The translations under genes and the position numbers were made by a program. The notes under the pieces were generated by a model that saw only the letters and a list, made by a program, of their open reading frames with translations, made no database searches and was not told the origin of the DNA. A stretch of DNA of 64,000 nt, taken from assembly GCA_026018925.1 (NCBI GenBank), contig JAKSZU010000009.1, positions 76,170,041 through 76,234,040 on the forward strand. Direction: 5' to 3'. Shown piece after piece: positions 1,912 to 62,250 of the stretch. Each line of letters starts with the position of its first letter. Positions within the stretch are counted from its first letter, which is position 1. The DNA is from Tupaia tana (Eukaryota; Chordata; Mammalia; Scandentia; Tupaiidae).

Positions 1912-4399
1912 AATATTGATGTACAAACACTTTTCTAACTTAGGATTCTTCTGTCCTTTGAGTAGATAACAAGGAGTGGGAATACTGGATCATATGGAAA
2001 TTGTATTTGTAGATCTTTGAGGAATGTCTATAATGTTCTTCACAATGACTGGACAAATTTACATTCCCACCAGCAATGTAGGAGAGTTCCCCTTTCACCA
2101 CACCCCCACCAGTACTTATCTTTTTTTTAAAATTTTTTAATTTTTTTTTTTATGTTAGTCATTCTGACTGGGGTTAGGTGGTATTGCATTACAGTTTTGA
2201 TTTGCATCTCCCTTATAATGATGAATGCTGAGTATTTTTTCATATGCCTTTTGGCTATTCATATGTCTTCCTTAGAGAGTTTTTGTTCAACTCAGTCTCC
2301 CATCTTTTAATTGTGTTAATCATCTTCTTTCAAATAGTTGCTTGAGTTCCCTGTGTATTCTGGTTATCAGTCTCTTATCTGATGCATAGTTTAGAAAAAT
2401 ATTTTCCCTTTCAGAGGGTTGTTGATTCACACAAATTACTGTGTCTTTTGCCATACACAAACTTCTTAATATGATGTAACCCCACTTGTGTATTTTATGG
2501 ATTATTGACTGTGCTTTGGGGCTCTTATTTTATAACTCTTTGTTTACCACAATGTCTCCTGAGTTTCCCCAGGGTTTTCCTGCAGTACTTTTATAATTTG
2601 AGGTTTAAGGTTTAGAACTTTAATCCACCTTGAGTTCATTTTTGTCAATGGTGAGAGGTAGGGGCTTAGATTCGTCTTTCTGCAGGTGGATATACAGTTT
2701 TTAGAACACCATTTGCTAAAGAGGTTTTCCTTTTCCCATTGGATTGACTGGTACCCTTTGTCAAAAATCAGTTGGCTGTATGTTTGGGAGTTTATTTCTG
2801 GGGACTCTTTTCTGTTCCATTAGTCTACCTGTCTGTTTCTGTGCCAATACCATGCTGTTTTGATTAACACAGCTTTGTATTATATTTAGGGTCAGGGAGT
2901 GAAATGCTACCCACTCCACTTTTCTTGTGCAGGATTGCTTTGGCAATATGAGGTCTTTTATGATTCCAGAGAAATTCTATGACTGTCTTTTCTATATTTG
3001 TGAAGAATGTCTCTGGCACATGGATTGGGATTTCATTAATATGTAGATCATTGTGGGTAGAATTGTCATTTTGATTAATTCTTCCAAATCAGGAACATGG
3101 GATTTCCTTCCTCTTTTTTATTTTATTTTGAATGTCTTTTTTTTTCTTCTTTCTTTTAGCTTTTCATAGTTTTTCTTGTGGAGGGCTTTAACTTCTTTGG
3201 TGAGATTTATTCCTAGGTATCTTATATTGTTTGTGATCATGATAAATGGAATTACTTTTTTCAGTTCTATCTCAGTCTGCCTGCTATTCATACATAGAAA
3301 AACTATAGATTTCTGTATGTTGATTTTGTATCCTGCAACCTTACTGTATTCATTTATTACAACCAGTAATTTTTTCATACATACCATTGGGTGTTCTATG
3401 TGTACAATCATGGCATTTGCAAATAGAGATAATTTCACCTATTCTTTTCCTGTTTGGATGCCTTTCATTTTATTCTCCTTTCGGATTGTGTTGGCAAGGA
3501 CTTCCAGTACTATACTGAAAAGGAGTGGAGAAAGTGGGCATCTTTGTCTTGTACCAGTTTATAGTGGAAAAGCTTTCAGCTTTTCTCTATTCAGGATGAT
3601 GTTAACTATAGGCTTTTCATAGATAGCTTTTATTGTGTTATTGTGATTTTGCTTAGAGTCTTCACATGAAGTGATGTCGAATCTTATCAAATGCTATTTT
3701 CTGCATCAATTGATATGATCATATGGTTATTTTTCTTTGTTAATATGGTTTATTACATTTATGGTTATGTATATGTTGAAAAATCCTTGCATCCCTGGAA
3801 TAAAGCCTACCTTGTTGTGATGTATAATCTTTTTTATACATTGTTGGATACTAATTGCTAGTATCTTTTTGAGAATTTTTGCTTCTATGTTCATCAGAGA
3901 TATCAATCTATAGTTTTCCTTCCTTGTCCTGTCCTTGTCTGTTATAAGGATAGTAGTGATGGAGTCTTCATTGAATGAATTTGTGAGTTCCAACCTTTGT
4001 GATCCTTAGAAATAACTTGAGCAGAACCTTTTCTTTAAATGTTTAGTAGATTTCAGAGGTGAATCCATCAGGATCAGGGCTTTTCTTTGTTGGAAGGTTA
4101 TTACTGATTCAATCTCCTGGCTTATTATGTGCCTATTGAGACTTTCTATGTCCTCATGACTCAATCTTGGTAGATTATATGTGTCCAAGAATTTGTTGAT
4201 GTCATTCAGATTTTATGGTTTATTGACATATAGTTGTTCATAGTATCCTCTAATGATGTTTTGTATTTCTATTATATGTGTTTTTATATTGTCTACTTCA
4301 CTGCAAATTTGATTTACCTGATTCCTTTCTCTCTTCTTCTTAATTAGTCTAGCTAGTAGTGTATCGATTTTGTTTATCTTTTTAAAGAACCAGCTTTTT

Positions 4400-4668
4400 G
4401 GGAACCAGCAGTTAGCATAATGGCTATGTCGCTGGACTCCCACGTAGTTGACCGCGGTTCGCGTCCCGGACCCGGTGGCTTAAAACTCAGGCCTGGCGCA
4501 TGTTCGTGCGTGCCCAAGATCCCGAGAGGAGAATGGAGGAGAAGGGATTTCAGCATGACCATCCCCCTGGGGGGTGATTTCTCGCTTTCTGTCTCTATGT
4601 CTCTCTCTCTCTCTCTGTCTCTCTGGCGAGTGCAAGCACCCTATAGCGAAAAACCTCTCAAAAATAAA
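4400..4668 (+). mobile_element. Young tRNA-derived SINE
   Basis: Starts GGGAACCAGCAGTTAGCATAATGG (A-box region), has a B-box-like GGTTCGCGTCC, then the GAGAGGAGAATGGAGGAGAAGGGATT block, the CCCCTGGGGGG palindrome, a CT-rich tract and an A tail. TSD AAAGAACCAGCTTTT (4384-4398) is repeated as AAAGAACCAGCATTTT at 4669-4684. It retains CpGs and looks recent relative to its L1 host. Confidence 0.95.
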
Positions 4669-5985
4669 AAAGAACCAGCATTTTGTTTTATTTATTTTCT
4701 TTATAGTTCGTTTATTTTTTATTTTATTTATTTCTGCTTGTATCTTTATTTTTCCTTTTCTCCTGAAGATTTTATTTTTATTTATTTATTTATTTATTTA
4801 TTTATTTTCTGTTGCTTTTCCCATTCTCTGAGACATAATGTTAGATTGTACATTTGCCTTCTTTTCATCTTCTTATGTGCACTAATTACTATTAACTTCC
4901 CACTTATGACTGCTTTTGCAATGTCCCAAAGATTATAAAAACTCATATACTCATTGTCATTGACTTCCACAAATCTTTTGCTTTCAATATTTATTTCTTC
5001 AGTATTTCTGAAGTCATCCAGGATTAGGTTATTTAGTTTAAATTTATGTGTGCATTTTTGAGGATTTTTAAAAAAATAATATCAAGTTTAATTCCATCAT
5101 GGTAGAAGAATAAGCTGGATATAGTTTCTATGCTTTTGAATATGTAGTCTTGCTTTGTGCCCTCTCATGTGGTCAGTCTTTGAAAAGTTTCCATGTTGGA
5201 GTGAGAAAATTGTGTATCTTATGGCTTTTGGGTGGGAGGTTCTATACATGTCTGTTAAGTCCATTTGATTTATGGTATTATTTAGATCCTCTATATCTTT
5301 GCTTATTTTTTGTCTATATGATCTGTCCAAAGGAGATAGTGTGGTGTCGAGGTCCCCAACAATTAATGTGTTGAAGTTTATCTCTCCTTTTTGATCTAAC
5401 AGACTTTCTTTCATGTATTAGGGTGCTCCAGAGTTAAGTGCATAGATATTTATAAGTGTTATGTCTTTTTGATGAAGTAGTAGCTATTTTACTCTATATA
5501 ATGCCTTCTTCGTCTCTTTGTACAGTTTTTGTCTTAAAGCCTATTTTGTTGGAAATTAATATCATGACTCCAGCTCTTTTGTGGTTCCCATTTCCATAGA
5601 ATATATTTTCCCAACCCTTCAATTTTAGTTTATGTATGTTTTTATCCATGATATGAATTTCTTGTAGGCAACAGAAAAGGGTTTCTTCTTTTTATTCCAT
5701 TCATCCAGTCTGTGTCTCTTGATTGGAGCATTTAATCCATTAACATTCAGTGTTATTATCAGTAATTTCTGAAATTGTCTTTACCTTTACAATGGCCATT
5801 GTCTTAGCTTTCTTTTATTTCAGGCTGTTCATTCTTTAGTTTTCCTAGAAAAGGACACTATTCAGAGTTTCTTAAAGAGCTGGTCTGGTGATGGCAAATA
5901 CTTTCAGGTTTTGTTTGTCTGAGAAGATTTTAATCTTTTTTTTCCCATATAAAGTATAATCTTGCTAGATATAATAATCTTGGTT

Positions 5986-11754: not shown

Positions 11755-12392
11755 TGTGGGAGGCTACACACCAGCGAGTCTGCTGAGGCCATTTTTCATG
11801 AGTCTCTTACTATTGCCATCTTAGGCTCAGAGAGCAAACAATTACAAAGGCCACAATTGGCTCCCCTTCAAAAACCTCACCTTCAAAACCGTACTCTGAT
11901 TGGCCACTTCCCATAGCAAATCGGTGAGCTTAGAATCCCTCAGATTTGCATATCTGGGCACCTCATGATTGGTCCACAAAGCAACCAATCATAACCCACC
12001 TTTTACTATACTTCATTCAACCAATCACGGCCCACCAGCATGTATATAACCACAATCCCTGGCTCATAATCGCCAGATGACCCTGAAGATCCTGAAGAGT
12101 TGTGACACCGTGTCGTCTCCGGACAACCCTGAGCTGTGACACCGCGTTATCTCCAGACGACCCTGAGCTGTGAAGCTGCGTCGTCTCCGGACGACCCTGA
12201 GCTGTGACGCTGCATCGTCTCCGGACGACCCTGAGCTGTGACGACATCACGTCGTCTCCAAATGACCCTGACAATAAAGAGACGACCCTGAAGAGACACT
12301 GCGTCATCTCCATGCTGTGACAGTGCACCGTTTGTCCCGTCTCTCACTCCTTCCCTCAGGAAACCTATTCGGCTGTCCCACGGGTCGGGACA
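11755..12392 (+). mobile_element. Solo LTR of an endogenous retrovirus
   Basis: A 638-bp LTR starting TGTGGGAGGC and ending TCGGGACA. It is flanked by a perfect 6-bp TSD CAAACT (11749-11754 and 12393-12398). Promoter signals are in order: CCAAT boxes near 11984 and 12020, a TATA-like TGTATATAAC at 12041-12050, and AATAAA at 12273-12278. No retroviral coding sequence flanks it, so it is a solo LTR left by recombination between two LTRs. A 34-bp tandem repeat lies between TATA and polyadenylation signal. A 6-bp TSD is more usual for class II than class I ERVs, but one or two bases may match by chance. Confidence 0.88.
12105..12265 (+). repeat. 34-bp tandem repeat inside the solo LTR
   Basis: TCGTCTCC/TTATCTCC recurs at 12113, 12147, 12181, 12215 and 12252, giving a period of 34, 34, 34 and 37 bp. 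Each unit contains GACGACCCTGAGCTGTGA or a close variant. The array is CpG-rich compared with the surrounding DNA. Confidence 0.85.
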
Positions 12393-18570: not shown

Positions 18571-19078
18571 GTAAAACAATTAAGAAACTGAAAAACAATG
18601 TGGTATTGTATAGCCTATGTGGAAAATAATTTCTGCTCTTGACTCTAGTGGTGGTTTGTCTGCAATCCTACCACTTTATCCTAAACATTTCTCAAGAACT
18701 TAGCTTATCTTGACAGATCAGATAATGACTTCACAGTCTTCGAGAATCTAGAAACAGGCAACAAGGGGATGGTTTATCCATTTGGATAGAAGGAAGAATA
18801 TCTCTATTTGGAAAGAATAGTTTCCTAAGTCCCCATGTATAGACACATTTTAGTATACGTATTTTACAACATTTACTCTTAGAGCTGCCCATTTGTTTGT
18901 TTCCTTTCTGCTCCTTTTAGTTCTTCTAATTACATATTGAAGAAGGCAATATTTAAGTGCAAAGGATGTATACCATCTCTTTTTAACTCTAGCTAATATC
19001 CATTGTGACTGGAATAGTGACTGAAAGCATTTACAGAATATGCAGGGGATAAGATCACAAAAGGCCAGTGCGGTGGCT
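18571..19078. other. Unique sequence, nothing recognised
   Basis: No repeat or gene identified between the SINE and the ORF2-less element. Confidence 0.4.
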
Positions 19079-19318
19079 TTTTTTTTTTTTTTTTTTACTT
19101 TTATTTTAATTAATTAATTAATTTATTTATTTATTACATTTTATCACATGTCTTTACAGTGTATGTTTCTTTTTTCAACACAAATACCATGCATGTCAGT
19201 CAAGACAAGGATATTTCTATATACATTATCATCAGCAAATAGCTTCTAATTTTTTGTCAATTAAGCATACTTTTACCCATTTTTTTCTCCTGTTCTCTCC
19301 CTCCCTTCCCCACAAAAC

Positions 19319-19790
19319 TTTTTTTTTTGCATTTTATTGATTCAAAACAGATCTTAAAGTATGGACAAAACTAGAATCTAGTGACAAGTGCACTGTAATT
19401 TTCTTCTGAAACATTTTTTTCCTCTCTCCATTCCTCCTTTCACTTTATAAAGATATAAACTTACTTATTTGCAAAAAAAAAATTAGGTTAATCTCAATTT
19501 GGTCTGTTGTTTTCACAAAGCCCCATAAGGATGCAATTTCTGATGCAAGGCAGCAAATAATATTGTATTATTAAACTTATGCAAATAACTGTTTACCACA
19601 AAATAAGAATGCTCAAAAATATTTTCCAATTGCAAAAGAGTCAAGAAGGGGGAAAAGTTTATTGAAAACTTTTTTTTAACAAATTGCTGAACCCAAAAAC
19701 TGAAAAGAAAACAAAAATTCTTAAATAGGAAAATGTGTAGAAGGACATCAGTAATGTTTTAGAAAAATGTCATAGAATTCTATTTCACCA
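19319..19790 (-). mobile_element. Putative mRNA 3'UTR retrocopy
   Basis: On the minus strand the sequence ends GAATCAATAAAATGC followed by about ten A residues, a polyadenylation signal at the right spacing. It does not resemble the L1 3'UTRs of this window. The upstream edge is uncertain, and the parent gene is not recognised. Confidence 0.4.
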
Positions 19791-19959
19791 GTTTAGTCTC
19801 ATGTAATCTCTCTTTTGTTGAATTTCCAGTGTTACTGTGGTCTGTCCTTTTCATTAACATTCAACATCATTAATGATATTTCAGAAGTTGTCCCTGCCAT
19901 TAAGTTGGCCTTTTTCTTGGTCATTTTTTGTTCTCTTATTTGTCTCAGTTTTCCTGGCA

Positions 19960-21025
19960 TAGTACTTCCTTAAGATCTTCTTGAAGAGCTGGTCTGGTGC
20001 TGATAAATTCTTTCAGGTTTTGTTTATCTTAAAATGTTCTTATCTTTTCTTCACATATGAAGGATAATATTGCCAGATATAGTAATTTTTGGTTGAAATT
20101 GTTTTTCACTTAATACTTTGAATATATTTTTCCATTCATTCCTTGCTTGCCTTGTTTCTGATGAGAGGTTCAATGTTAGACTGATGGGATATCCTTTGAA
20201 AGTAACTTGATGTTTTTCTCTTTCCAATTTTAGTATCCTAACTCTGTCTGTAGTTTTGGTCAATCTGGGTATGATGTGCCTTGGAGAAGATCTTCTTGGG
20301 TTGATTCTATGTGGGGTCCTTTGTACTTCTTGGGTCTGGATATTTGAATGACTCTCTAGGTTGGGAAAGTTTTCTTCCAGGATTTCAGGGAATAGATTAA
20401 CAATGTCCTGATTAGTTTCTTCACTTTCTGGGATATTGATTATCTGGTTGTTTGGGTGTCTAATGGTACCTAGCATTACTTGAATATTATTCTCATTTGG
20501 GGGGTTATATTATCAGTATTTTTGGTGAATTTTTCTAGGTCAGAGATTCTGTCTTCTATATCTGAGATTTGATCTTTTGCATCATGTAATCTCCTTTTAA
20601 TAATTTCAAGGGTGGTTTTGATTCCTGTATTACAGTCTTTATCTCTAACAGTTCTGTTTGATTCTTTTTATGGTGTGTATTTCCTCTTTCAGATCATGGA
20701 AAAACTTCCTCACCTCCTGGAACTCATTGTCTCTTTTCTCCTGCATTTTCTGGAGTTCACTAGCTCTCTTTCCTTTCATCTCTGTTAGCTTTGTCACTAT
20801 GAATATCCTAAATTCTTTATCTGACATTTCCACAAGTTCCATTGTACTGTCTGTAGATGATGAAGGGCTGTTCTTTCCCTTTGGCGGAGAGATATTGTCT
20901 TGATTTCCCATATTTATTGTCCCTTTCAGATAGTGGTTTCTTTTCATCATCAGAAGTGCTCTGGGGTGGCTGGTGGGTGCCAAGACTGAGCAGAAGGTAT
21001 CTGGTATCTTGGGGTACAATAACAA
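19960..21025 (-). pseudogene. ORF1 remnant of element e
   Basis: Two open pieces remain, 20645-21025 (N-terminal, with the MSDKEFRIFIVTKLTEM block and coiled-coil) and 20051-20476 (RRM/C-terminal part, with NPRRSSPRHI and AREKHQ-type blocks). They match the intact ORF1 at 46120-47121. Stops and frameshifts in between make it nonfunctional. Confidence 0.8.
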
Positions 21026-21492: not shown

Positions 21493-21511
21493 AAAAAGCA
21501 AATAGAGCCTG

Positions 21512-21800
21512 ATCAGTTCCGGACACCAGGCGGCTGGAGGCTACAGTCCGACCACTCCAGCACTTCGGCATCCCCACCCTTCCTCCTCCTTGGACCCCAG
21601 GTTGGTTGTCTGGGACTTTAAGATGAACCTGCACCCCACCTCACCCACAAACTGGATTGAGCTAGCCATCAGTTCTGGACACCAGGCAGCCTGACCTGTC
21701 ACCCATCCTCTGGGCCTTCCTCCTTTGCCTTTGGACTCTCTGAATTTTAATGATTTGATTAGTGCGTGATGCGCGTTGCACGCTGCACAATTTCCTTTTT
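21512..21800 (+). promoter_or_regulatory. Monomeric L1 5'UTR, element f
   Basis: ATCAGTTCCGGACACCAGG at 21512 recurs as ATCAGTTCTGGACACCAGG near 21669, a monomer of about 158 bp. A CpG-rich GTGCGTGATGCGCGTTGCAC stretch follows near 21760. Promoter activity is inferred from analogy with monomeric L1 5'UTRs. Confidence 0.6.
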
Positions 21801-22033
21801 TGTTTTGTTTTTATTTGCTCTTGAGATGTTGCTTATTAGGTCAGTTGGAGACACACCACTCCTTAGAAACAGGGAGGACTTTGGGCCATCCAGGACGAGT
21901 GGCAACAATTAATGGTAACTGTGGGCAACAGGTAGGCCAACCATAAGAGAAATCATCAATTTAATGATGCTGTACAACTCTTAACACTCAGAGTTACCTT
22001 AAATAAGTTAGGAAGCATCATATAGATTACCTG

Positions 22034-23000
22034 ATGACTAGGAAAAATCGCAGAGGCTCAAGAAATATGAGCAACCAAAAAAAGACCTCTCCCTCAAGGG
22101 AAATCCTCAAGCCCACATCATCCACAGTCAGTACAATGGAGGTCATGGACATGTCCAATAAGGAATTCAGAATATTTGTAGTGACCAAATTAACTGAGAT
22201 GGAAGAGAAAAGAAACAAGGAGCTCCAGGAGATGAGGAAGTCCTTCCATGACTTCAAAGAAGAAATGGATACCTTAAATAAGAACCAGATGGAACTTCTA
22301 GGGTTGAAGAAAGTGATACAGGAAATCAATACCTCCCTTGAAGGTATTAAAAGTAGGTTAGACCAGGCAGAAGATTGAATCTCTAATGTAGAAGACAAAA
22401 CATCCGACATAGAAAAATGTATCAAGAAGACTGAGAAAACAACCATAAAAAATGAGGATAATATATGAGGAATACTGGATACCATCAAGTGCCCCAACAT
22501 CTGGATAAATGGTATTCCAGAAGAGGAAGAAAATAATAAGGGCCTAGATAATTTGTTCCATGAAACCCTGGAGGAAAACTTTCCAAACCTAGAAAGACAT
22601 TCAAATATCCAGACCCAAGAAATACATAGCACCCTGAGTAGCATCAACCCAAGAAGATCTTCTCCAAGGCACATCAAAGCCAGAATGGCAAAAAGAACAG
22701 ACAAAGACAAGATACTAAAGTTGGCAAGAGGGAAATGTCAAGTTACTTACAAAGGTCACCTCATCAGGCTAACATTGGATCTCTTGGCAGAAACAATGGA
22801 GGCAGGGAAAGAATGGGGAAGCATAGTCAAAGTGTTGAGTGAAAAACAATTTCAACGAAGAATACTATACCCAGCAAAATTATCTTTCATATGGGAAAAA
22901 AAGATAAAAACTCTCGAGTAAACAAAATTTTAAAGAATTTACCAACTCCAGACCGGCTCTTCAAGAGGTTCTGAAGGGAGTACTATACAAGGAAAACTAA
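22034..23000 (+). pseudogene. L1 ORF1, element f
   Basis: Starts at ATG 22034 (MTRKNRRGSRNM), the same N-terminus as the intact copy at 47121. An open run of 114 codons covers the N-terminal region and coiled-coil, then a TGA at about 22376 ends it. The RRM and C-terminal domain resume in a second open piece (22553-22921) with NPRRSSPRHI-, GKCQVTYKGH- and EKQFQRRILYPAKLSF-type blocks. The original stop is probably at 22998-23000. Frame breaks make it nonfunctional. Confidence 0.88.
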
Positions 23001-23046
23001 AAAATCAGACAGACAGTTATACAAGAACAAAAAGCAACCAAGAAAA

Positions 23047-26000
23047 TGTCTCACTTAATGATACGATCAGGTACAGAAATATCTATAATTACATTGAATG
23101 TCAATGGATTAAATTCTCCAGTTAAGAGACATAGACTGGCTGAATGGAAAAAAAAAAAAAAAAAAAAACCGGAAACCCTCTATCTGTTGCCTAGAAGAAA
23201 CACACCTTATGGATAAAGACATGCATAGATTAAAAGAAAAGGGCTGGAAAAAGATATTCCATGCAAATGGAAATGAAATCAAAAAAAGGCAGGAGTAGTG
23301 ATAGTGATCTCAGACAAAAAAGATTTCAAGACAAAGACTGTAAGAAGAGACAAAGAAGGGCATTATATAATAGTAAATGGGGTAATACAGCAAGAAGACA
23401 TAACCCTTATAAATATCTATGCACCCAACTCAGGTGCACCTAAATATGTGAAGGAAAGACTGCTGGAGCTAAAAGGAGAGATTGGGAGAAATTCTATAAT
23501 TGTTGGAGAGCTCTCAACACCCCATTATCTACTTTAGACAGATCTTCTAGACAGAAAATAAATAGAGAGATATAGGACTTAAATTATACTATATATCAAA
23601 TGGGCTTGACAGATATCTATAGAACTTTCCATCTTACATCCACAACATATACATTTTTCTCACCCCGGCATGGAATCTTTTCAAAGATTGATCATATGTT
23701 AGGACACAAATCAAGCCTTTACAGATTGAAAGGCATAGAAACTGTATCTTCTCTGACCATGATGGAATTAAACTCAAGATTAATTTCAAGAAACAACCCC
23801 AAAGATACACAAACACATGGAAACTAAACAACCTACTTCTGAATGACTTCTTCACTACTGAAAAAATTAAGGCTGAAATAAAAAAAATATGGAAACAAAT
23901 GATAATGAGTACACAAGTGTCCATAATCTATGGGAAACAGCAAAAGTAGTCATAAGAGGGAAATTCATAGCAATTAGTATGCATAAGAAAAGGATGGAAA
24001 GATGGCAAATAGATAACTTATAATCATGACTCAGGGAATTGGAAAAACAACAACAAATGAACCCCCAAAATGCCAGGCAAAAGAAATAATAAAGGTTAGA
24101 GCAGAAATAAATGAAATAGAAAATAAACGAAGCATATAGAAAATAAATGAAAGCAAAAGTTGGTTCTTTGAAAAGATTAACAAGATTGACACACCATTGG
24201 CTAGAATGATCAAGAAGAAGAAAGAAAGAAACTAGATTAATCAAATATGTGATCAAACAGGCAATATTGTAACAGACTTAGCAGAAATACAAAACATCAT
24301 TAGAGGATACTTTGAGCGACTGTAGGCCAACAAACATGATAAGTTGGAGGAGATGGACAAATTCCTAGATGCATATAATCTACCAAGATTGGATCAGGAG
24401 GACATAGATAACCTGAATAGAACCATAACAAGACAGGAGATTGAATCAGTAATAAATAACCTCCCAACAAAGAAAAGCCCAGGTCCAGATGGCTTCACTT
24501 CTGAATTCCACAAAACTTTTAAGGAAGAGTTAACCCCTATCCTACTAAAATTATTTCTAAAGATTCAAAAGGAAGGAAACCTTCCAAATTCATTATATGA
24601 AGCCTCCATCATCCTCATCCCCAAAATAGATAAGGACATGACAAAAAAGGAAAACTACAGACCAATATCATTGATGAATATACATGCAAAAATTCTCAAC
24701 AAGATACTCACAAATCGTATCCAACAACATACAACAAAGATCATTCATCACGACCAGGTAGGCTTTATCCCAGGGATGCAAGGGTGGTTCAATATACGCA
24801 AGACCATAAATGTAATACATCACATTAACAGAAAGAAAGATAAAAAGCATATGATCATATCAATTGATGCAGAGAAAGCAGTTGATAAAATACAACATCC
24901 TTTTATGATTAAGACCCTCAGTAAGATTGGTATAGAAGGGTCATTTCTCAACACAATAAAAGCCATCTATGAAAAACCTACAGCTAACATTATACTGAAT
25001 GGGGAAAAGCTGAAAGTTTTTCCGCTAAAAATGGGTACTAGGCAAGGCTGCCCACTTTCTCCACTACTCTTTAATATAGTACTGGAAGTCTTAGCTAATG
25101 CAATCAGAGAAGAGAACAATATAAAAGGCATTCGAATAGGCAAAGAAGAGGTGAAAATATCTTTATTCACAGATAACATGATGGTATACTTAGAAGACCC
25201 AAAGGTCTCCATGAAAAAACTGCTTGAAGTAATAAGTGAATACAGTAAAGTGGCAGGATACAAAATCAATATCCAAAAATCTATTGCATTTCTATACATG
25301 AACAATAAGTTGAACGAAGTAGAGCTGAAGAAAGGAATCCCTTTCACCATAACCACAAGATGTATAAGATACCTAGGGATAAACCAAACTAAGAAAGTCA
25401 AAGACCTTTATAAAGAAAACTATGAAAATCTTAAAAAGGATATTGAAAGTGACATAAAAAAGTGAAGGACATCCCATGCTCCTGTATTGGAAGAATTAAC
25501 ATAAACAAAATGGCAATTCTACCCAAATTAATCGACATGTTTAAAGCAATTTCTATCAAAATACCAGAAATATTCTTCACAGATCTAGAAACGACAATCA
25601 TAGAATTTGTTTGGAATCATAAAAGACCTCATATTGCAAAAGCAATCTTGCACAAGAATGGAGTAGGAGACATATCACTCCCTGATCCCAAGATATACCA
25701 TAAAGCTGTGGTCATCAAAACAGTATGGTACTGGCAAAAAGCCAGACATGCGGACCAATGGAATAGAATAGAGACCCCAGAAATAACCCCCAAAGCTTAT
25801 AGCCAACTGATCTTTGACAAAGGATATCAGTCAATTCATTGGGAAAAGGAAAACCTCTTTAGTAAATGGTGTTGGAAAAACTGGGTATCCACCTGCAGAA
25901 AGATGAAACTGAACCCCCATGTTTCACCATTAACAAAAATCAACTCAAAATGGATCAACGATCTGAACCCAAAGCCTCAAACAATAAAACTACTGGTGGA

Positions 26001-26850
26001 AAATGCTGGGGAAACTCTGGGAGACATTGGAGTAGGCAGACTTCTTAAATAATACTCCCAAATCACAGGCAATAATCCCTAAAATTGACAAGTGGGACTA
26101 TATCAGACTAAGAAGTTTCTGCACAGCAAAGGACACAGTAACAAGTGTGAACCGACAACCCTCAGACAAGGGACTGATAACCAGAATACACAGGGAACTA
26201 AAGTGACTTATGTGAAAAAAAATGATTAACCTAATTAAAAGATGGAAAAATGAGTTGAACAAAAATCTTTCTAAGGAAGACATACGAACAGCCAAAAAGC
26301 ATATGAGCAAATGCTCAACATCCCTCATCATAGGGGAGATGCAGATAAAAACCACAATAAGATACCACCTAACCCCTGTCAGAATGGCAAAGATTAAGAA
26401 TATAAAAAGTCAGAAGTGTTGGCAGGGATGTGGTGAAAAGGGAACCCTCTTACACTGTTGATGGGAATGTAAACTGGTTCAACCACTGTGGAGAACAATA
26501 TGGAGGTTCCTCAAAATCTACATATAGAACTACCATTTGATCCAGCAATCCCACTTCTGGGCATCTATCCAAAGGTCAGGAAAATGCTGAGTCAGAAAAG
26601 TACTTGCACATCAATGTTTATTGCAGCATTATTCACAATTGCCAAGACATGGAACCAACCTAAATGTCCACAAATGATGAATGGATTGGAAAAGTGTGGT
26701 ATATATACTCTATGGATTACTACTTAGCCATAAAAAATAACAAGACCCTAGCATTTGATAGAAAGTGATCAGATATGGAGGATCTATTGCTGAGTGAAGT
26801 AAGCCAGGCTATGAAAGAAGATATTGTACGTATCCTCTTAATATATACCG
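23047..26850 (+). pseudogene. L1 ORF2, element f
   Basis: Endonuclease region 23047-23830 in broken frames: NVNGLN, EETHL, NIYAPNSGAPKY and a KIDHMLGHK block, with the SDH catalytic motif near 23750 in a shifted frame. Reverse transcriptase is a 373-codon open stretch (24344-25465) with [34 protein letters not shown] and [18 protein letters not shown]. The catalytic FADD block near 25170 is LFTDNM, losing one metal-binding aspartate. The C-terminal Cys-rich segment ([11 protein letters not shown]) lies near 26420-26460. The usual TGA after NIY reads CGA at about 26851. Nonfunctional. Confidence 0.9.
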
Positions 26851-27363
26851 ACTATCCGCACTCTATGGTAGAGAACCAAGTATTGGAGGACATAAAAGCA
26901 GTGAAAGTACTTAACGAGAATAAGACAGTAGGGAATGGGGGAAGTGAATAGAAGAGGATAGAGAAGGATAGCAAGAGAACAAATAGAGAGGCAGAACGTC
27001 AGTGGGAAACAGATATGGCTTATTACCTGTTGATGATGGCATGTATAGTATTCTCAACTGGATTGGTCTGAGAAGTATTTCATGATAGGTAAAGTCTTTT
27101 TACAAGTAAAATGAGAAATAGTGATTGTTTAAAAAATAATAATTAGAATAATAATAATAATGATTGGGAAAAACATTAAAAAGATATTGAATGATAAAAT
27201 GGGGAGATTAATGTCTCTGTATTGACTGACATACATGGGGTTCCCTTTTGAAAAAGCAATGTAATACAGTGTAAAGTTATATGCAATCCAATGTAATATA
27301 AAGAAGATTATGATGATAATAAAAATGAATTAATTAATTGTAAAAAAAAGCAAATAGAGCCTG

Positions 27364-44716: not shown

Positions 44717-44996
44717 TTGTTGTTGTTGGAGAGGTTTATTTATTTATTTATTTTTTTGCTCTAAGGTGTGTGCGTTCACCAAAAAGACAGAGAGAGACAG
44801 AGAGATGGAAAGTGAGAAATCGACTCCCGGGGGGAATGGCCATGCCACAATCCTTTCTCCTCCATTCTCCTCTCGGGATCTTGGGCATCCACGCCCACAT
44901 GACTGGCGTGAGTTTATGACACTGAGTCTGGGACTTGAACTGTGGTCGACTACATGGGAGTTCAGCGACATGGCCATTATGCTAATTGCTGGTCCC
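44717..44996 (-). mobile_element. tRNA-derived SINE
   Basis: Reverse copy with a GTTGTTGTTG/TTTATTTATT tail. TSD ATTAGCTACAGGTTTTG (44700-44716) against ATTAGCTATAGATTTTT (44997-45013). Confidence 0.92.
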
Positions 44997-45098
44997 ATTA
45001 GCTATAGATTTTTCATAAATGGCTTCTAGTATGCTGAGAAACGATACTTCTATCCTCATTTTACTGAAAGTATTAATCATGAAGGAATGTTGTATTTT

Positions 45099-45543
45099 TT
45101 TTTATTTTTTAGTTTTTTGGTTTTTTTTTAATTTATTTATTTGCATTCATTCTCTGAACATCATTACAGCATACAAAATGAGATTTTCCATCCAAATTAC
45201 ACTATATATTGTCTCAATCAAGCACATCAACAAACATGTTATTGTCAGCAAATGATCTTCCATTTCTTGTCTTCTGTATGTTTTGCTTTTTTCCCCCCAT
45301 CATAGATTCTCTATCTCTTACCCTCTGCCCTCTCCCACTCTCCTCCCACAGTCTCTGGTAACTATGTTTGCTTTCTATACTGTTTTCTCCTCACATTTTA
45401 TTGTAACGCCAAAGACCCTAATCAATCCAAATACCCTCATAGCAAACACAGGTGATACCCACATTTCCATGAACACAAGTCTTACTTTACGCATCCTGTA
45501 AAGTAGTACCTAGCTGTGGCTACATATCCTACTGCAGTCATTG
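45099..45543 (-). repeat. Distal 3' module (about 445 bp) of element m
   Basis: On the minus strand this begins TGACTGCAGTAGGATATG and ends in an A-rich tail. It is homologous over its whole length to the independent insertion at 56413-56869, which starts with TGACTGCAGTAAG right after its TSD. The 3' half resembles L1 3'UTR; the 5' half (about 200 bp) has no counterpart in the other L1s here. Confidence 0.65.
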
Positions 45544-45561
45544 AATAGATATATATTTTTT

Positions 45562-45845
45562 TTCTAAAACTTTTTTTTTTGTAACTCAAATTACATTCCT
45601 TCCCTAAGCTTCATCACAGCATACAAAATGCAATCTCCCATCCAGTACACACTGCATAGTGATACAATCATGCACATTACAAAAAATTTTCCGTTACTAC
45701 TTCCTAGAATTACTTCCACCCCTCTTTCTGACCCTCTGTCCCTTCCCACCCTCCTCTCACACCACCTCCGGTGTCTACAATTGTCCTTCATTCCCTTCCC
45801 ACCCACGTTGCATTGATCACACAATTTCCTACATAATCTAACTAC
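45562..45845 (-). repeat. Proximal 3'UTR module of element m
   Basis: Related to the last ~230 bp of the distal module (CATCACAGCATACAAAATG, CCATCC.GTACACACTGCATA, then a pyrimidine-rich block) and followed in sense direction by its own A-run (45569-45578 as T). So element m ends in two 3'UTR-like modules in tandem. Confidence 0.65.
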
Positions 45846-46119
45846 TTTCAATGGTGAGTTCACTCATTACTACTAAGAAAACCAGTTTTAACTTAACTCA
45901 AAGAAATGCCAAGGAACTTTGCTTAAAGCCAGGAAACAAGTTAGGATTCTGTTCAAATGGAAGGTGCATGAACCTGTCAGTCTCAAGTACTTTTACCTTC
46001 TGTTCTGGTTCAATTTTCCTGATTAAATTCTGGGATATAATATTCAACTCCAGACTTGTCCCTCTGATTAAGTTGGCCACTTTCATAGTTTTTGGACTCT
46101 TATTTCCGTGTGTCTGTGT

Positions 46120-47121
46120 TTAATTTTCTTGATACAGCACACCCTTGAGAACTTCTTGGAGATCTGGTCTGGTGCTGGTAAATTCTTTCAGGTTTTGTTT
46201 ATCTGATAATGTTCTTGTCTTTTCTTCCCACCTGAAAGATAATCTTGCCGGGTACAGTATTCTTGGCTGAAATTGCTTCTCTTGTAACACTTTGAATATA
46301 TTTTCCCATTCTCTCCTCGCTCGCATTGTTTCTGATGAGAGATCTGCTGTTAGCCTGATGGGATGTCCTTTGTAGGTAACTTGATGTTTCTCTCTTGCCA
46401 ATCTTAGTATCTTGTCTTTGTCTGCGGTTTTGGTCAACCTGGCTATAATGTGTCTTGGAGAAGATCTCCTTGGGTTGATTCTATTTGGGGTCCTTTGTAT
46501 TTCCTGGGACTGGATCTTCGAATGCCTCTCTAGGTTTGGAAAGTTTTCTTGCAGGATTTCATGGAATAGATTATCAATGCCCTTATGGGTCTCTTCACCT
46601 TCTGGAATGCCAATTATCCGGATATTTGGACGTTTGATGGTATCCACTACTTCTCGCATATCATTCTCAAATTTTTGAGCCATTTTCTCAGTCTTCGTGG
46701 TGGACTTTTCTAAGCCAGCCATTTTCTCTTCTACATCTGAGATTCTATTTTCTGAATGACCTAGTCTGCTTTTAATACTTTCAAGGGAGATTTTGACTTC
46801 TTGTATTATAGACTTGATCTCTAGCAGTTCCGTTTGAGTCTTTCGTAAAGTGTGTAATTCCTCTTTTAGATCTTGCAAGAATTTCCTCATCTCCTGGAAC
46901 TCGGCAACTTCTTTCTCCTTTCTCTTTAGCAGTTCATTATCTCTCTTTTCTTCCATCTCTGTTAGCTTCGACATTACGAATGTTCTAAATTCCTTATCAG
47001 ACATTTCCATGACTTTCACCGAACTGCTTGTGGATGAAGGAGAGTTACTCTTTTCCATTGGAGGAGAGGTATTTTCTCGTTTTCCCATATTTCTTGTGAT
47101 CCGACGGTGATTTCTTGTCAT
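46120..47121 (-). CDS. Intact L1/HAL1 ORF1 protein, 333 aa
   Basis: Uninterrupted reading frame of the L1 ORF1 family, an RNA-binding nucleic-acid chaperone that packages retrotransposon RNA into cytoplasmic RNPs. In order: a basic Ser-rich N-terminus (residues 1-40), a long Lys/Glu-rich coiled-coil (about 45-155) for trimerisation, an RRM starting near RPNIRIIGIPEGEE (about 164-177), and a basic C-terminal domain with NPRRSSPRHIIARLTK (about 217-232), AREKHQVTYKGHP and EKQFQPRILYPARLSFRW. The length is close to the 338 aa of human ORF1p. The start ATG gives MTRNHRRITRNMG, matching the ORF1 start of element f. No ORF2 follows. Openness over 333 codons suggests recent insertion or expression; whether it is translated cannot be read from sequence. 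Confidence 0.93.
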   Translation of the reverse strand: MTRNHRRITRNMGKRENTSPPMEKSNSPSSTSSSVKVMEMSDKEFRTFVMSKLTEMEEKRDNELLKRKEKEVAEFQEMRKFLQDLKEELHTLRKTQTELLEIKSIIQEVKISLESIKSRLGHSENRISDVEEKMAGLEKSTTKTEKMAQKFENDMREVVDTIKRPNIRIIGIPEGEETHKGIDNLFHEILQENFPNLERHSKIQSQEIQRTPNRINPRRSSPRHIIARLTKTADKDKILRLAREKHQVTYKGHPIRLTADLSSETMRARREWENIFKVLQEKQFQPRILYPARLSFRWEEKTRTLSDKQNLKEFTSTRPDLQEVLKGVLYQEN

Positions 47122-47666
47122 CTGATGAATGGCGTGTTTCTTTCAAATTCTTGAAGTTAAGCCTCAATGTTCAGGAGCAAGCAGACAGAGGTGTTCTAGA
47201 ATCTGATTGCCGTTCTGTTGTGATCGCTGGTGCAGCAGATTCAGTAGATATTGGATGGAGGGACAAGAAAAAGGAAAATGAAAAAGAGAGAGAGAAACAA
47301 CAACAAAAAGAGAGAAAAAAGACAAAAAAATAAAAAATTATAATTGCTTTTCTTTTTTTTTTAAAAGAAAAAAATCACAAAATAGAAAACCGCGTGGCAC
47401 GCTTGCGCGCTGCGTGAAATGTCTAGTTCCCAGTTTCCATGAGGAATCTTCTCAGAGAATGGCTCAACTCTCCTGCCTGGGAGAAAGGAGCAGAAGGGAT
47501 TATTAACAAAACAAAAGATGGAGCTGAGAGCCAGAGAGAAACTCTACCTTTAAAAAAATCGTAAAAAGGAAAAATTACCAAAAAAAAAAATGAGGAGATA
47601 GGAGCAGAGAGAGACAGAGACCTCAGAGACACAGAGACAGAGATAGAAGGCCAGAGGGGCTCCCTA
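47122..47666 (-). promoter_or_regulatory. 5'UTR of element m downstream of the monomers
   Basis: Non-monomer 5'UTR with a CpG-rich TGGCACGCTTGCGCGCTGCG-type segment near 47395-47415, purine-rich tracts (47265-47335, 47590-47640), and a partial monomer at 47419-47475. Likely carries the leader and part of the promoter. Confidence 0.5.
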
Positions 47667-48151
47667 CCACACTAGCTTTGCTTGCTGGAGGCTGAATTAT
47701 GAGTAGAAAATCTTCATTTCTCCTGTGCCCTGAAATATCTAGTTCCTAGTTTCCATGAGGAATCTTCTCGGAGAATGGCTCAACTCTCCTGCCACACTAG
47801 CTTTGCTTGCTGGAGGCTGAATTATGAGTAGAAAATTTTCATTTCTCCTGTGCCCTGAAATATCTAGTTCCCAGTTTCCATGAGGAATCTTCTCAGAGAA
47901 TGGCTCAACTCTCCTGCCACACTAGGTTTGCTTGCTGGAGGCTGAATTATGAGTAGAAAATCTTCATTTCTCCTGTGCCCTGAAATATCTAGTTCCCAGT
48001 TTCCATGAGGAATCTTCTCAGAGAATGGCTCAACTCTCCTGCCACACTAGGTTTGCTTGCTGGAGGCTGAATTATGAGTAGAAAATCTTCATTTCTCCTG
48101 TGCCCTGAAATATCTAGTTCCCAGTTTCCATGAGGAATCTTCGCAGAGAAT
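47667..48151 (-). repeat. 125-bp tandem monomer array (promoter-type)
   Basis: CCACACTAG begins at 47667, 47792, 47917 and 48042: an exact 125-bp period. Three full units and a fourth of about 110 bp are nearly identical (single-base variants such as CTTTGC/GTTTGC, CTCGG/CTCAG). Each holds GAGGCTGAATTATGAGTAG and AGTTTCCATGAGGAATCTTC. Position at the 5' end of the element parallels the monomer promoters of mouse L1. Confidence 0.92.
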
Positions 48152-48352
48152 GGAATGTTGTATTTTGTCAAGTGCTTTTTCTACCTTGATTTAAATGATC
48201 ATATGTTTTTTATCTTTCTTTTTGTTAGTATGGTGTATTACATTTATGATTTTACATATGTTGAACCACCCTTGCAGCCCTGCAATAAAACCTACCTTGC
48301 CATGATGAATAATCTTTTTTACGTGCTGTTGAATACAGTAAGCAAGTATCTT

Positions 48353-50419: not shown

Positions 50420-50800
50420 TCATTTGAACTGCACATGATGGAAGTGAGCTCTGTTTGAGAGCTGAGAGCTGCCCTATGTAATAAAAAGAAGTAAAGAATT
50501 AGCAAAAGGATGAAGAAACAGCCTCAACAGTCTCCCTTTCTGGCAGGGAGGAGGAAGGGGTTCTGAAGTTGGGAGTTTGGGTTGGAGCTGGAGCAGTAGC
50601 CAAGGATTGGCCCTCCCTCAGTTTCTCTGACAGGCAGGGGGCTGCAGAATAAAGTGGGTTCTGCTTGAGATCCCAGAGCAGCCCTTGCTGGTGGTAGGAG
50701 GGAGGCTCCAAAGTTGGAAGTTGGAAGTTGGAGCTGGAGCTGGGGTGAAAGGTCATGCTCACCTCAGTTTCCCTGACTGAGCAGGAAAATCCAGATGGAA
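50420..50800 (-). promoter_or_regulatory. Monomeric 5'UTR of element n
   Basis: Two related blocks contain CCTCAGTTTCYCTGAC (near 50615 and 50762) and GTTGGAGCTGGAG (near 50583 and 50728), giving a repeat of about 147 bp. They resemble the 5'UTR blocks of element a. Confidence 0.5.
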
Positions 50801-56412: not shown

Positions 56413-56869
56413 TGACTGCAGTAAGCTATATAGCCCCAGCTGGGTACTACTTTATAATATGTTCATTCTACTCACTGGGGTTTATGCCTAAAGTCAGACT
56501 TGGGTTCATGTATAGGTATATATCAGCTGTGCTAGCTATTGGATATATTTAGACTAAGTTCATTAGCAAATCAATTAAATGGGGGGGGAAGGCATAGAAA
56601 GCAACCATGGATACCAGAGACAATGTGGGAGGAGGGTGGGACATGGCAGAGGGTGAGGGATAGGGAATCAAGGATGGCAAAACGAAAAACAAAGTATACA
56701 AGACATAAGAATTGGAAAATTATTTGCTGAAAACATGTATGTTGATGTGCTTGATTGAGCCAATACACAGTGTATTTTGTGGAAAATTCATTTGTATGCT
56801 GTAGTGATGTATAGTGAATTAATGTAAAAAATAAATAAATTTAAAAAGAAAAAAAATTAAAAATTAAAA
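56413..56869 (+). mobile_element. Stand-alone ~455-bp 3'UTR-type retroposon
   Basis: A perfect 16-bp TSD AAAAGGTATCACTAGA (56397-56412 and 56870-56885) bounds an insert that starts TGACTGCAGTAAGC and ends in an A-rich tail. The insert contains no ORF2 sequence. It is homologous along its length to the distal module of element m (45099-45543). The last ~250 bp resemble L1 3'UTR; the first ~200 bp are specific to these two copies. A GGTTCA word near 56501 and TAGCCCCAGCTGGG near 56432 are weak Pol III box candidates. Confidence 0.85.
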
Positions 56870-61570: not shown

Positions 61571-61874
61571 CTTCCTCATTTATCTAGACAATTTCTACCC
61601 ATTGTTCAAAAGTCAGGGTCTCTTATTTCCACTTTGTAGGTTACTTCCTAAAATCGCAGAAAGAGCTGTTTCCTCTATGTTCCTCCTTGTGTTTGTGATT
61701 TTTATGCAATTCTTTTTAGAGTGGATCACATTTTATTTTGATTATTTGTTCATATTTATGTTCTTCTAGGACATGGCAAACTCTTGAGAACAAGAAACAT
61801 GTCTTACTCATCTTTGCATTTTCAGTGACTGTTATTGTATTTGCTATATAATCTATAATGAAGAAACAATTTCT
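61571..61874. other. Unique sequence
   Basis: No recognised repeat or coding signal. It flanks the 5' end of element l. Confidence 0.35.
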
Positions 61875-62250
61875 GTGCCTCTGTTTACTAATATGTAAAA
61901 CTGGGGTTAAAAATAGTAAGTATCTCTTATGGCTATATTTTAAAAATAATCATTTTATTTAACTTTATTTACTTTTTAATATTTAACTTTATTTATTTAC
62001 TTATTTTTTAATTTGACAAGAGAGAGAGATAAAGAGATAGAGAAGAGAGAGACTGAGAAAAGCAAGCCAACAGATCTGGGACGCAAATCGTGGTCAGCCA
62101 AGTGAGAATACAGCGTCCCTAACAACCATGCCACCTGCTGGACCCTCTTATTGCTATTTGGATAAATAAGTAAAATAATGTATATATAAAGTACTTAGAA
62201 CAATGTCTGAAATATAGTAAGTGCCCAATAAATGTTGATCATATTAATTA
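61875..62250 (+). mobile_element. MIR SINE 3' part, split by a SINE
   Basis: GTGCCTCTGTTTACTAATATG, TAAAACTGGGGTTAAAAATAG before the insert, then AAAGTACTTAGAACAATGTCTG and AAGTGCCCAATAAATGTTG after it. This is the typical MIR 3' end (cctcatctgtaaaatggg…gcacttagaacagtgcctggca). Confidence 0.75.
61937..62143 (-). mobile_element. Old tRNA-derived SINE inside MIR
   Basis: Reverse copy with T-rich end, GA tract, GATCTGGGACGCAAATCGTGG and ATGCCACCTGCTGGACC. TSD CTCTTATGGCTAT (about 61924) against CTCTTATTGCTAT (about 62144). Confidence 0.8.

Follow-up and report, generated by a model that had tools for sequence, protein, structure and literature searches.

A HAL1-type L1 lineage without ORF2 in the genome of Tupaia tana, represented by a recent copy with an open ORF1

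A 64,000-nucleotide stretch of the Tupaia tana assembly GCA_026018925.1 (contig JAKSZU010000009.1, positions 76,170,041 to 76,234,040; hereafter the window, with positions counted from its first letter) contains a 3053-bp element on its reverse strand, in which a monomer array and an uninterrupted L1-type open reading frame 1 (ORF1) are followed by a 3' untranslated region (3'UTR) and the body of ORF2 is absent. The element is of the HAL1 (half-L1) type, a known kind of which it is an unusually successful member, and is very probably a recent copy of a non-autonomous L1 derivative whose ORF2-less lineage has spread as a family of its own. This view is drawn from genomic copies sharing one ORF1-to-3'UTR junction, from older copies in the same ORF2-less state and from the pattern of change in ORF1.

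Structure of the element

An earlier reading of the window, made from its letters without database searches (the sequence-only reading), had recognized here an insertion of 3053 bp bounded by a perfect target-site duplication (TSD) of 15 bp. These coordinates proved exact, and the flanks, which derive from L1 ORF2, act as a gapless empty site when joined: they align with four other ORF2 copies of the window at 78–81 % identity over 245–254 columns across the join without gaps; the alignment to a fifth is shorter (197 columns) and contains 7 gaps. The uninterrupted 333-codon L1-type ORF1 of that reading was likewise borne out. Its frame contains no stop or indel, and L1 descent is evident from matches to the Pfam L1 RBD-like (E 8.7e-33) and dsRBD-like (E 1.1e-21) domains, to human L1 ORF1 protein (ORF1p) chains (E 5e-63) and to the ORF1p of L038, a young L1 of the same genome (67 % amino acid identity), as well as from the ORF1 tree described below. 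By comparison, each of the seven other ORF1 copies in the window carries 1–9 in-register stops and, measured against the element, one or more indels that change the frame. The retained CpGs taken as a sign of recency were upheld for ORF1, with 19 CpG in the element versus 1–6 in seven other copies, and the near-identity of the monomers was confirmed by Tandem Repeats Finder (TRF; 125-bp period, 3.9 copies, 98 % matches), the monomers of the window copy sharing 109–113 of 114 positions with one another.

The assertion that no ORF2 sequence is present at all held for the ORF2 body, which is missing, and had to be modified for the ORF2 5' end, of which approximately 50 nt are probably kept. The longer stretch 46065–45977 was considered as a remnant of the ORF2 reverse transcriptase (RT) region owing to a weak match near 24351; segments around 24251 are among the better of 501 window segments, although not the best, and the candidate was dropped because comparison with old copies marks the stretch as specific to the family. 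Further downstream, the 3'UTR consists of two tandem 3' ends of half-L1 type (units A and B), the second of which is 73 % identical to a separate insert at 56413–56869. A nested-insertion origin of unit B found no support, as the search for a TSD of its own gave A-rich matches only. An Rfam scan of the window yielded no matches, and scans of prokaryote and viral collections found no relative.

Copies in the host genome

The search of the host assembly (2.95 Gb, 1198 contigs) with the ORF1 protein gave 121 scored matches including the window copy, all covering 333 of 333 residues without stops at 98–100 % identity; they head the ranking of 88,366 first-look candidates. From the 120 matches outside the window, 20 copies were fetched together with flanking sequence. 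All 20 align with the element from the ORF1 start or upstream of it, through the junction and into the 3'UTR without ORF2, at 96.8–98.6 % identity over at least 2.0 kb, and their alignments end between element positions 2968 and 3053. All 21 of 21 aligned rows contain the junction and differ there only by point changes and one-base indels.

At the level of the whole genome, a 38-mer spanning the junction occurs at 4263 places (up to three mismatches; reversed control 0), and a 38-mer from the end of ORF1 at 3387. Since ORF1-end places are fewer than junction places, a large class of ORF2-bearing copies is unlikely, with room left for rare ones; on contig C111, 23 of the 31 listed exact ORF1-end places are followed by the exact junction motif 113–115 nt further on. 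The absence of ORF2 is thus a feature of the family, as seen in the fetched copies and in these two counts.

Mean pairwise divergence is 1.4 % in this protein-ranked sample, with private differences averaging 0.36 % per copy. A second sample of 20 copies was chosen regardless of ORF1, out of the 100 exact junction places listed; the whole ORF1 region is present in 18 of these and the open 333-codon frame in 6, and the full copies together with the window copy diverge by 3.5 % on average. Both values agree with the recent age proposed for the element, and judged by them the family is young; it may also still be active. Some caution is imposed by the material itself, which counts against an unqualified statement of this kind: the ranking by protein score biases intactness and low divergence in the 121 matches and the first 20 copies, the junction-picked sample comes from few contigs and likewise leans young, and the whole evidence base is the sequence of one individual.

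The insertions also bear marks of L1-type integration. In addition to the A-tail and TSD of the window copy, direct repeats resembling TSDs of at least 13 nt stand beside an A-rich tail in 13 of the 20 fetched copies, and repeats of 9–12 nt are found in 6, the shortest being individually not beyond chance; at the remaining copy (L024) no such repeat was found. The alternative that the element is a single L1 whose ORF2 happened to be deleted, and that its ORF1 looks intact only because the insertion is recent, could appeal to the single young copy of this kind in the window, yet is counted as refuted: the junction is common to every fetched copy and to the 4263 places, it recurs in older copies, and 17 of the 20 copies have their own repeats of at least 10 nt at other sites. 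Copies carrying ORF2 at the same point, which the sequence-only reading took as the mark of a one-off deletion, were not encountered among the 20 fetched.

Older half-L1s and the descent of the lineage

The window holds an older half-L1 at 20949–19076, comprising ORF1 followed by approximately 870 bp and an A-tail, for which neither a TSD nor the 5' end was found. Among full-length ORF1 copies it is the closest to the element (77.9 %), with a partial copy at 78.0 % over 364 sites. At three fetched loci, additional ORF2-less copies lie beside the young one, are 82.0–86.2 % identical to the element and have the same spacer type. In an ORF1 tree of 13 sequences, five ORF2-less ORF1s are split from the eight others with support 100; ORF2 was shown for six of these eight (L1s near 22–27, 38–44, 56–59 and 5–7 kb of the window, L037 and L038), the other two being the copies at 50.1–49.3 kb and 60.7–59.8 kb.

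Several independent half-L1 origins, with young and old copies resembling each other because all keep ORF1, would be an alternative to common descent, and HAL1s are said in the cited account to have arisen several times in mammals (PMC5753468). The direct spacer comparison of the element with 20949–19076 is indeed not significant (z 1.9 and 1.8), with 95, 461 and 50 of 501 window segments scoring as well under three scorings, and in the 3'UTR unit A gives z −1.0 as opposed to 6.3 for the terminal unit B. The intermediate copies nevertheless bridge the gap: the spacer of 20949–19076 scores 279–377 against them, values reached by none of 705 non-overlapping window segments (mean 91, standard deviation 20, maximum 184). 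Together with the grouping of the ORF2-less ORF1s in the tree, this makes independent origins quite improbable, and a provisional view of 20949–19076 as a separate origin was reversed by the same intermediates. A decoy that had earlier beaten the bridge (1 of 700) was discarded, since it overlapped the spacer itself.

In the single lineage thus favoured, the young copies stand apart from the older half-L1s in two respects: approximately 100 bp are deleted near 45977, and the 3' end is present twice in tandem, compared with once in the old half-L1 of L024. The lineage also appears to have moved away from the L1 3' end. The terminal part of the oldest half-L1 matches the 3'UTR of the young L1s (score 285, decoy maximum 169), the old half-L1 of L024 gives an ambiguous score of 260 (1 of 255 decoys as good), and the young half-L1 3'UTR has no match (133, a score equalled or exceeded by 10 of 255 decoys).

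A decayed yet complete L1 with ORF1 and ORF2 (21512–27344, forward strand), flanked by a perfect 19-bp TSD at 21493–21511 and 27345–27363, has inserted on the upstream side of the ORF1 of 20949–19076. A 1.9-kb nested element at 50800–48906 (reverse strand) consists of ORF1, a short interspersed nuclear element (SINE) in place of the ORF1 C-terminus and an L1-type 3' end; originally it could have been of either kind, L1 or half-L1.

Selection on ORF1

Changes in ORF1 were assigned by a parsimony count over 161–178 codons, in which the state shared by most other copies served as reference. Sites fixed in 21 young copies comprise 28 synonymous and 31 nonsynonymous changes, corresponding to 0.42 of the neutral expectation (p 8e-4); when the young copies are set against old half-L1s alone, 13 and 15 changes remain (0.48, p 0.04). 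A dead old copy used as a control gives 15 and 56 (ratio 1.15), from which the young branch differs with p 0.0014, and the young L1 L038 gives 38 and 26 (ratio 0.28). Without the extra copies, the element itself shows 27 and 28 changes (0.38), while six other window copies range from 0.33 to 1.62. Because the old copy already lacks ORF2, the young branch by its topology ran in the ORF2-less state, and the substitution counts show purifying selection on ORF1 along the ORF2-less lineage.

Not all results point in this direction. Two other old copies used as controls give 0.67 each (p 0.10 and 0.08), the dead copies blur the ancestral state in a parsimony count, and in the junction-picked copies shared variants (15 to 17) and singletons (48 to 90) do not differ significantly (p 0.14). 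The junction-picked sample lends itself to the rival explanation that ORF1 is dispensable for the spread of the element, being open only owing to the youth of the copies and their few sources, with the RNA taken up like that of an mRNA pseudogene, as the open frame is missing in 14 of its 20 copies (2 of them truncated). The depletion of nonsynonymous changes on the ORF2-less young branch, and the difference of this branch from the dead copy, make this explanation unlikely.

Monomers and splicing in the 5'UTR

The region between the monomers and ORF1 is mostly a 441-bp GT-AG intron (element positions 485–925) in which a long pyrimidine tract precedes the acceptor. The exact intron stretch is absent from 10 of the 20 fetched copies and the acceptor is kept in 7, while two further copies (L027 and L019) use the same donor with other acceptors, CAACAG and TTCTAG. 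In total, 12 of the 20 are spliced insertions with one donor and three acceptors. Inserted copies thus show the precise GT-AG removal within the 5'UTR that defines spliced integrated retrotransposed elements (SpIREs), the window copy itself being unspliced. Genome-wide, the spliced join is found at 914 places and the unspliced acceptor at 2023 (up to three mismatches; controls 0).

In the window copy the GT donor occurs in the last monomer only, and in all 12 spliced copies 105–484 nt of monomer are kept directly upstream of the splice join. The monomers, which presumably serve as the promoter, lie upstream of the donor. On the copy tree the splice state changes 6 times, compared with a mean of 6.5 after shuffling (461 of 1000 shuffles as low), and such a scattered state fits recurrent splicing. 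In 12 of the 20 fetched copies the inferred 5' end lies in the same monomer register, within its first eight bases if an extra leading G is allowed.

In L028, a young half-L1 of unclassified splice state, ORF1 is preceded by unrelated sequence right at CAG/ATG (the slash marks the boundary), lying upstream of position 2664 in sense orientation, and its RNA was possibly spliced to ORF1 from another exon. An old-L1 5'UTR at 61618–61200 (reverse strand) seems by eye to contain diverged tandem monomers of another type, which suggests that L1 promoters may have been replaced here.

The likely helper and a model of mobilization

A genome search with part of the RT region of one L1 in the window gave 108 scored copies including the window one; most have tied scores, and many have an open frame of 1343 amino acids. 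Two fetched copies, L037 and L038, are 98.9 % identical over 6016 bp; ORF1 is open over 322 codons in L038 and ends early in L037, and a 14-bp TSD was found for L037 and none for L038. A 39-mer from the ORF2 start of this L1 occurs at 1881 places, to be set against the 4263 half-L1 places as a rough comparison only, given the different motifs and age ranges. Judged by its presence, this young L1, whose open ORF2 frame is long, is the likely helper that would move the half-L1; for mobilization of HAL1 by the L1 ORF2 protein (ORF2p) in trans, such presence is only permissive. The pairing is weakened by the absence of any clear 3' end or monomer common to the young half-L1 and the helper L1.

The following sequence of events is proposed. 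An ancestral L1 lost ORF2 from approximately 50 nt past the ORF2 start, as shown by the junction common to old and young copies, and the lineage has since spread as a separate family that has monomers of its own and a diverging 3'UTR and whose ORF1 is normal for an L1. Transcription may start within a monomer, as the clustering of the 5' ends suggests, and the RNA is often spliced in the 5'UTR, as the spliced insertions show. It would then yield ORF1p that coats its own RNA, which is in line with selection on ORF1, and ORF2p of the co-resident young L1 would copy the RNA by target-primed reverse transcription, as suggested by the TSDs, the A-tail and the presence of a helper. The most far-reaching version of this model, a long-lived parasite of a parasite in which a selected ORF1p acts in cis, ORF2p is borrowed, and regular 5'UTR splicing keeps the monomers so that spliced copies can be transcribed again, is offered tentatively, at somewhat less than even confidence.

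Relation to known systems

HAL1 elements are described in the cited accounts as L1-derived, with ORF1 only, an A-tail and TSDs, presumed use of L1 ORF2p and several origins (PMC5753468, PMC5322556), and rat HAL1 as active with an internal promoter kept (PMC8535693). The present element resembles HAL1 as portrayed there in its L1 derivation, ORF1-only content, A-tail, TSDs and presumed borrowing of ORF2p. The family differs from that portrayal in its own monomer type, the 441-bp 5'UTR intron, the frequent spliced insertions, the doubled 3'UTR and the several age layers in one genome. No claim is made that the splicing and the layered lineage are absent from print. The young L1s are like the half-L1 in the ORF1p of L038 and in a short CpG-rich stretch of the 5'UTR, and the oldest half-L1 has an L1 3' end; they differ in the long open ORF2 frame of L037 and L038, another 3'UTR and 158-bp monomers in which no resemblance to the half-L1 monomers could be detected.

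Human SpIREs are reported to make up about 2 % of full-length L1PA1–L1PA6 (131/6,609), to have reduced promoter activity and to be generally dead ends (PMC5860796). As far as that account goes, GT-AG removal within the 5'UTR prior to insertion is common to both systems, whereas the half-L1 has a far higher share of spliced copies in the fetched sample, each of them retaining monomer sequence.

In the prevailing view, L1 proteins work mainly on the RNA that encodes them. The thousands of half-L1 copies suggest that a lineage living on borrowed ORF2p can last and keep spreading for a long time, and a family apparently outnumbering its likely helper would show efficient capture of ORF2p by an RNA from which ORF1p itself is made. 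As one genome contains many young copies, several age layers and a likely helper, the cis role of ORF1p becomes directly testable, while spliced and unspliced sister copies provide a natural readout of RNA processing ahead of retrotransposition. For specialists, the interest lies in the splicing and in a layered lineage with a selected ORF1.

Features of the window

Table 1. Positions of the half-L1 element, its parts and related features in the window
Feature	Positions	Strand	Basis
Second, older and ORF2-less half-L1 of this lineage, with broken ORF1, HAL-type spacer and L1-type tail	19076..20949	-	Comparisons, ORF1 tree
TSD, 3' copy, AAAATACAACATTCC, perfect 15 bp	45084..45098	-	Sequence
Whole half-L1 (HAL1-type) element, 3053 bp	45099..48151	-	TSD, gapless empty site, aligned genome copies
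A-rich tail	45099..45120	-	Sequence
3'UTR unit B, second and terminal 3' end	45121..45567	-	Matches sole 3'UTR unit of old half-L1 in L024
3'UTR unit A	45591..45862	-	Matches sole 3'UTR unit of old half-L1 in L024
Site of ~100-bp deletion marking the young subfamily versus older half-L1s	45977..45980	-	Alignment to old copies
Family-specific junction 38-mer used for genome count	45996..46033	-	4263 places, reversed control 0
Probable ORF2 5'-end remnant, ~50 nt, approximate bounds	46020..46066	-	Aligned to ORF2-bearing L1s and old half-L1s
ORF1, 333 codons, L1 ORF1p-like	46120..47121	-	Open frame, Pfam, human ORF1p, L038
5'UTR intron, 441 bp, GTAGGG...CACCAG, retained in window copy	47227..47667	-	Precise absence in 10/20 fetched copies
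CpG-rich stretch common to 5'UTR of young L1 L038	47364..47414	-	79 %, 52 columns, E 2e-5
Half monomer, 63 bp, within intron	47415..47477	-	95–98 % to three monomers
Presumed promoter: four tandem 125-bp monomers, of which the last is short	47663..48151	-	TRF
TSD, 5' copy, AAAATACAACATTCC, perfect 15 bp	48152..48166	-	Sequence
5'-truncated half-L1-type 3'UTR insert, 16-bp TSD	56413..56869	+	TSD, 3'UTR match

Elsewhere in the window, ARAGORN found no tRNA genes, and a 34-bp minisatellite of 5.1 copies lies at 12097–12271. SINEs are abundant (for example 44785–44996, 4401–4674 and 62010–62140); by eye they look tRNA-derived and are perhaps of two types.

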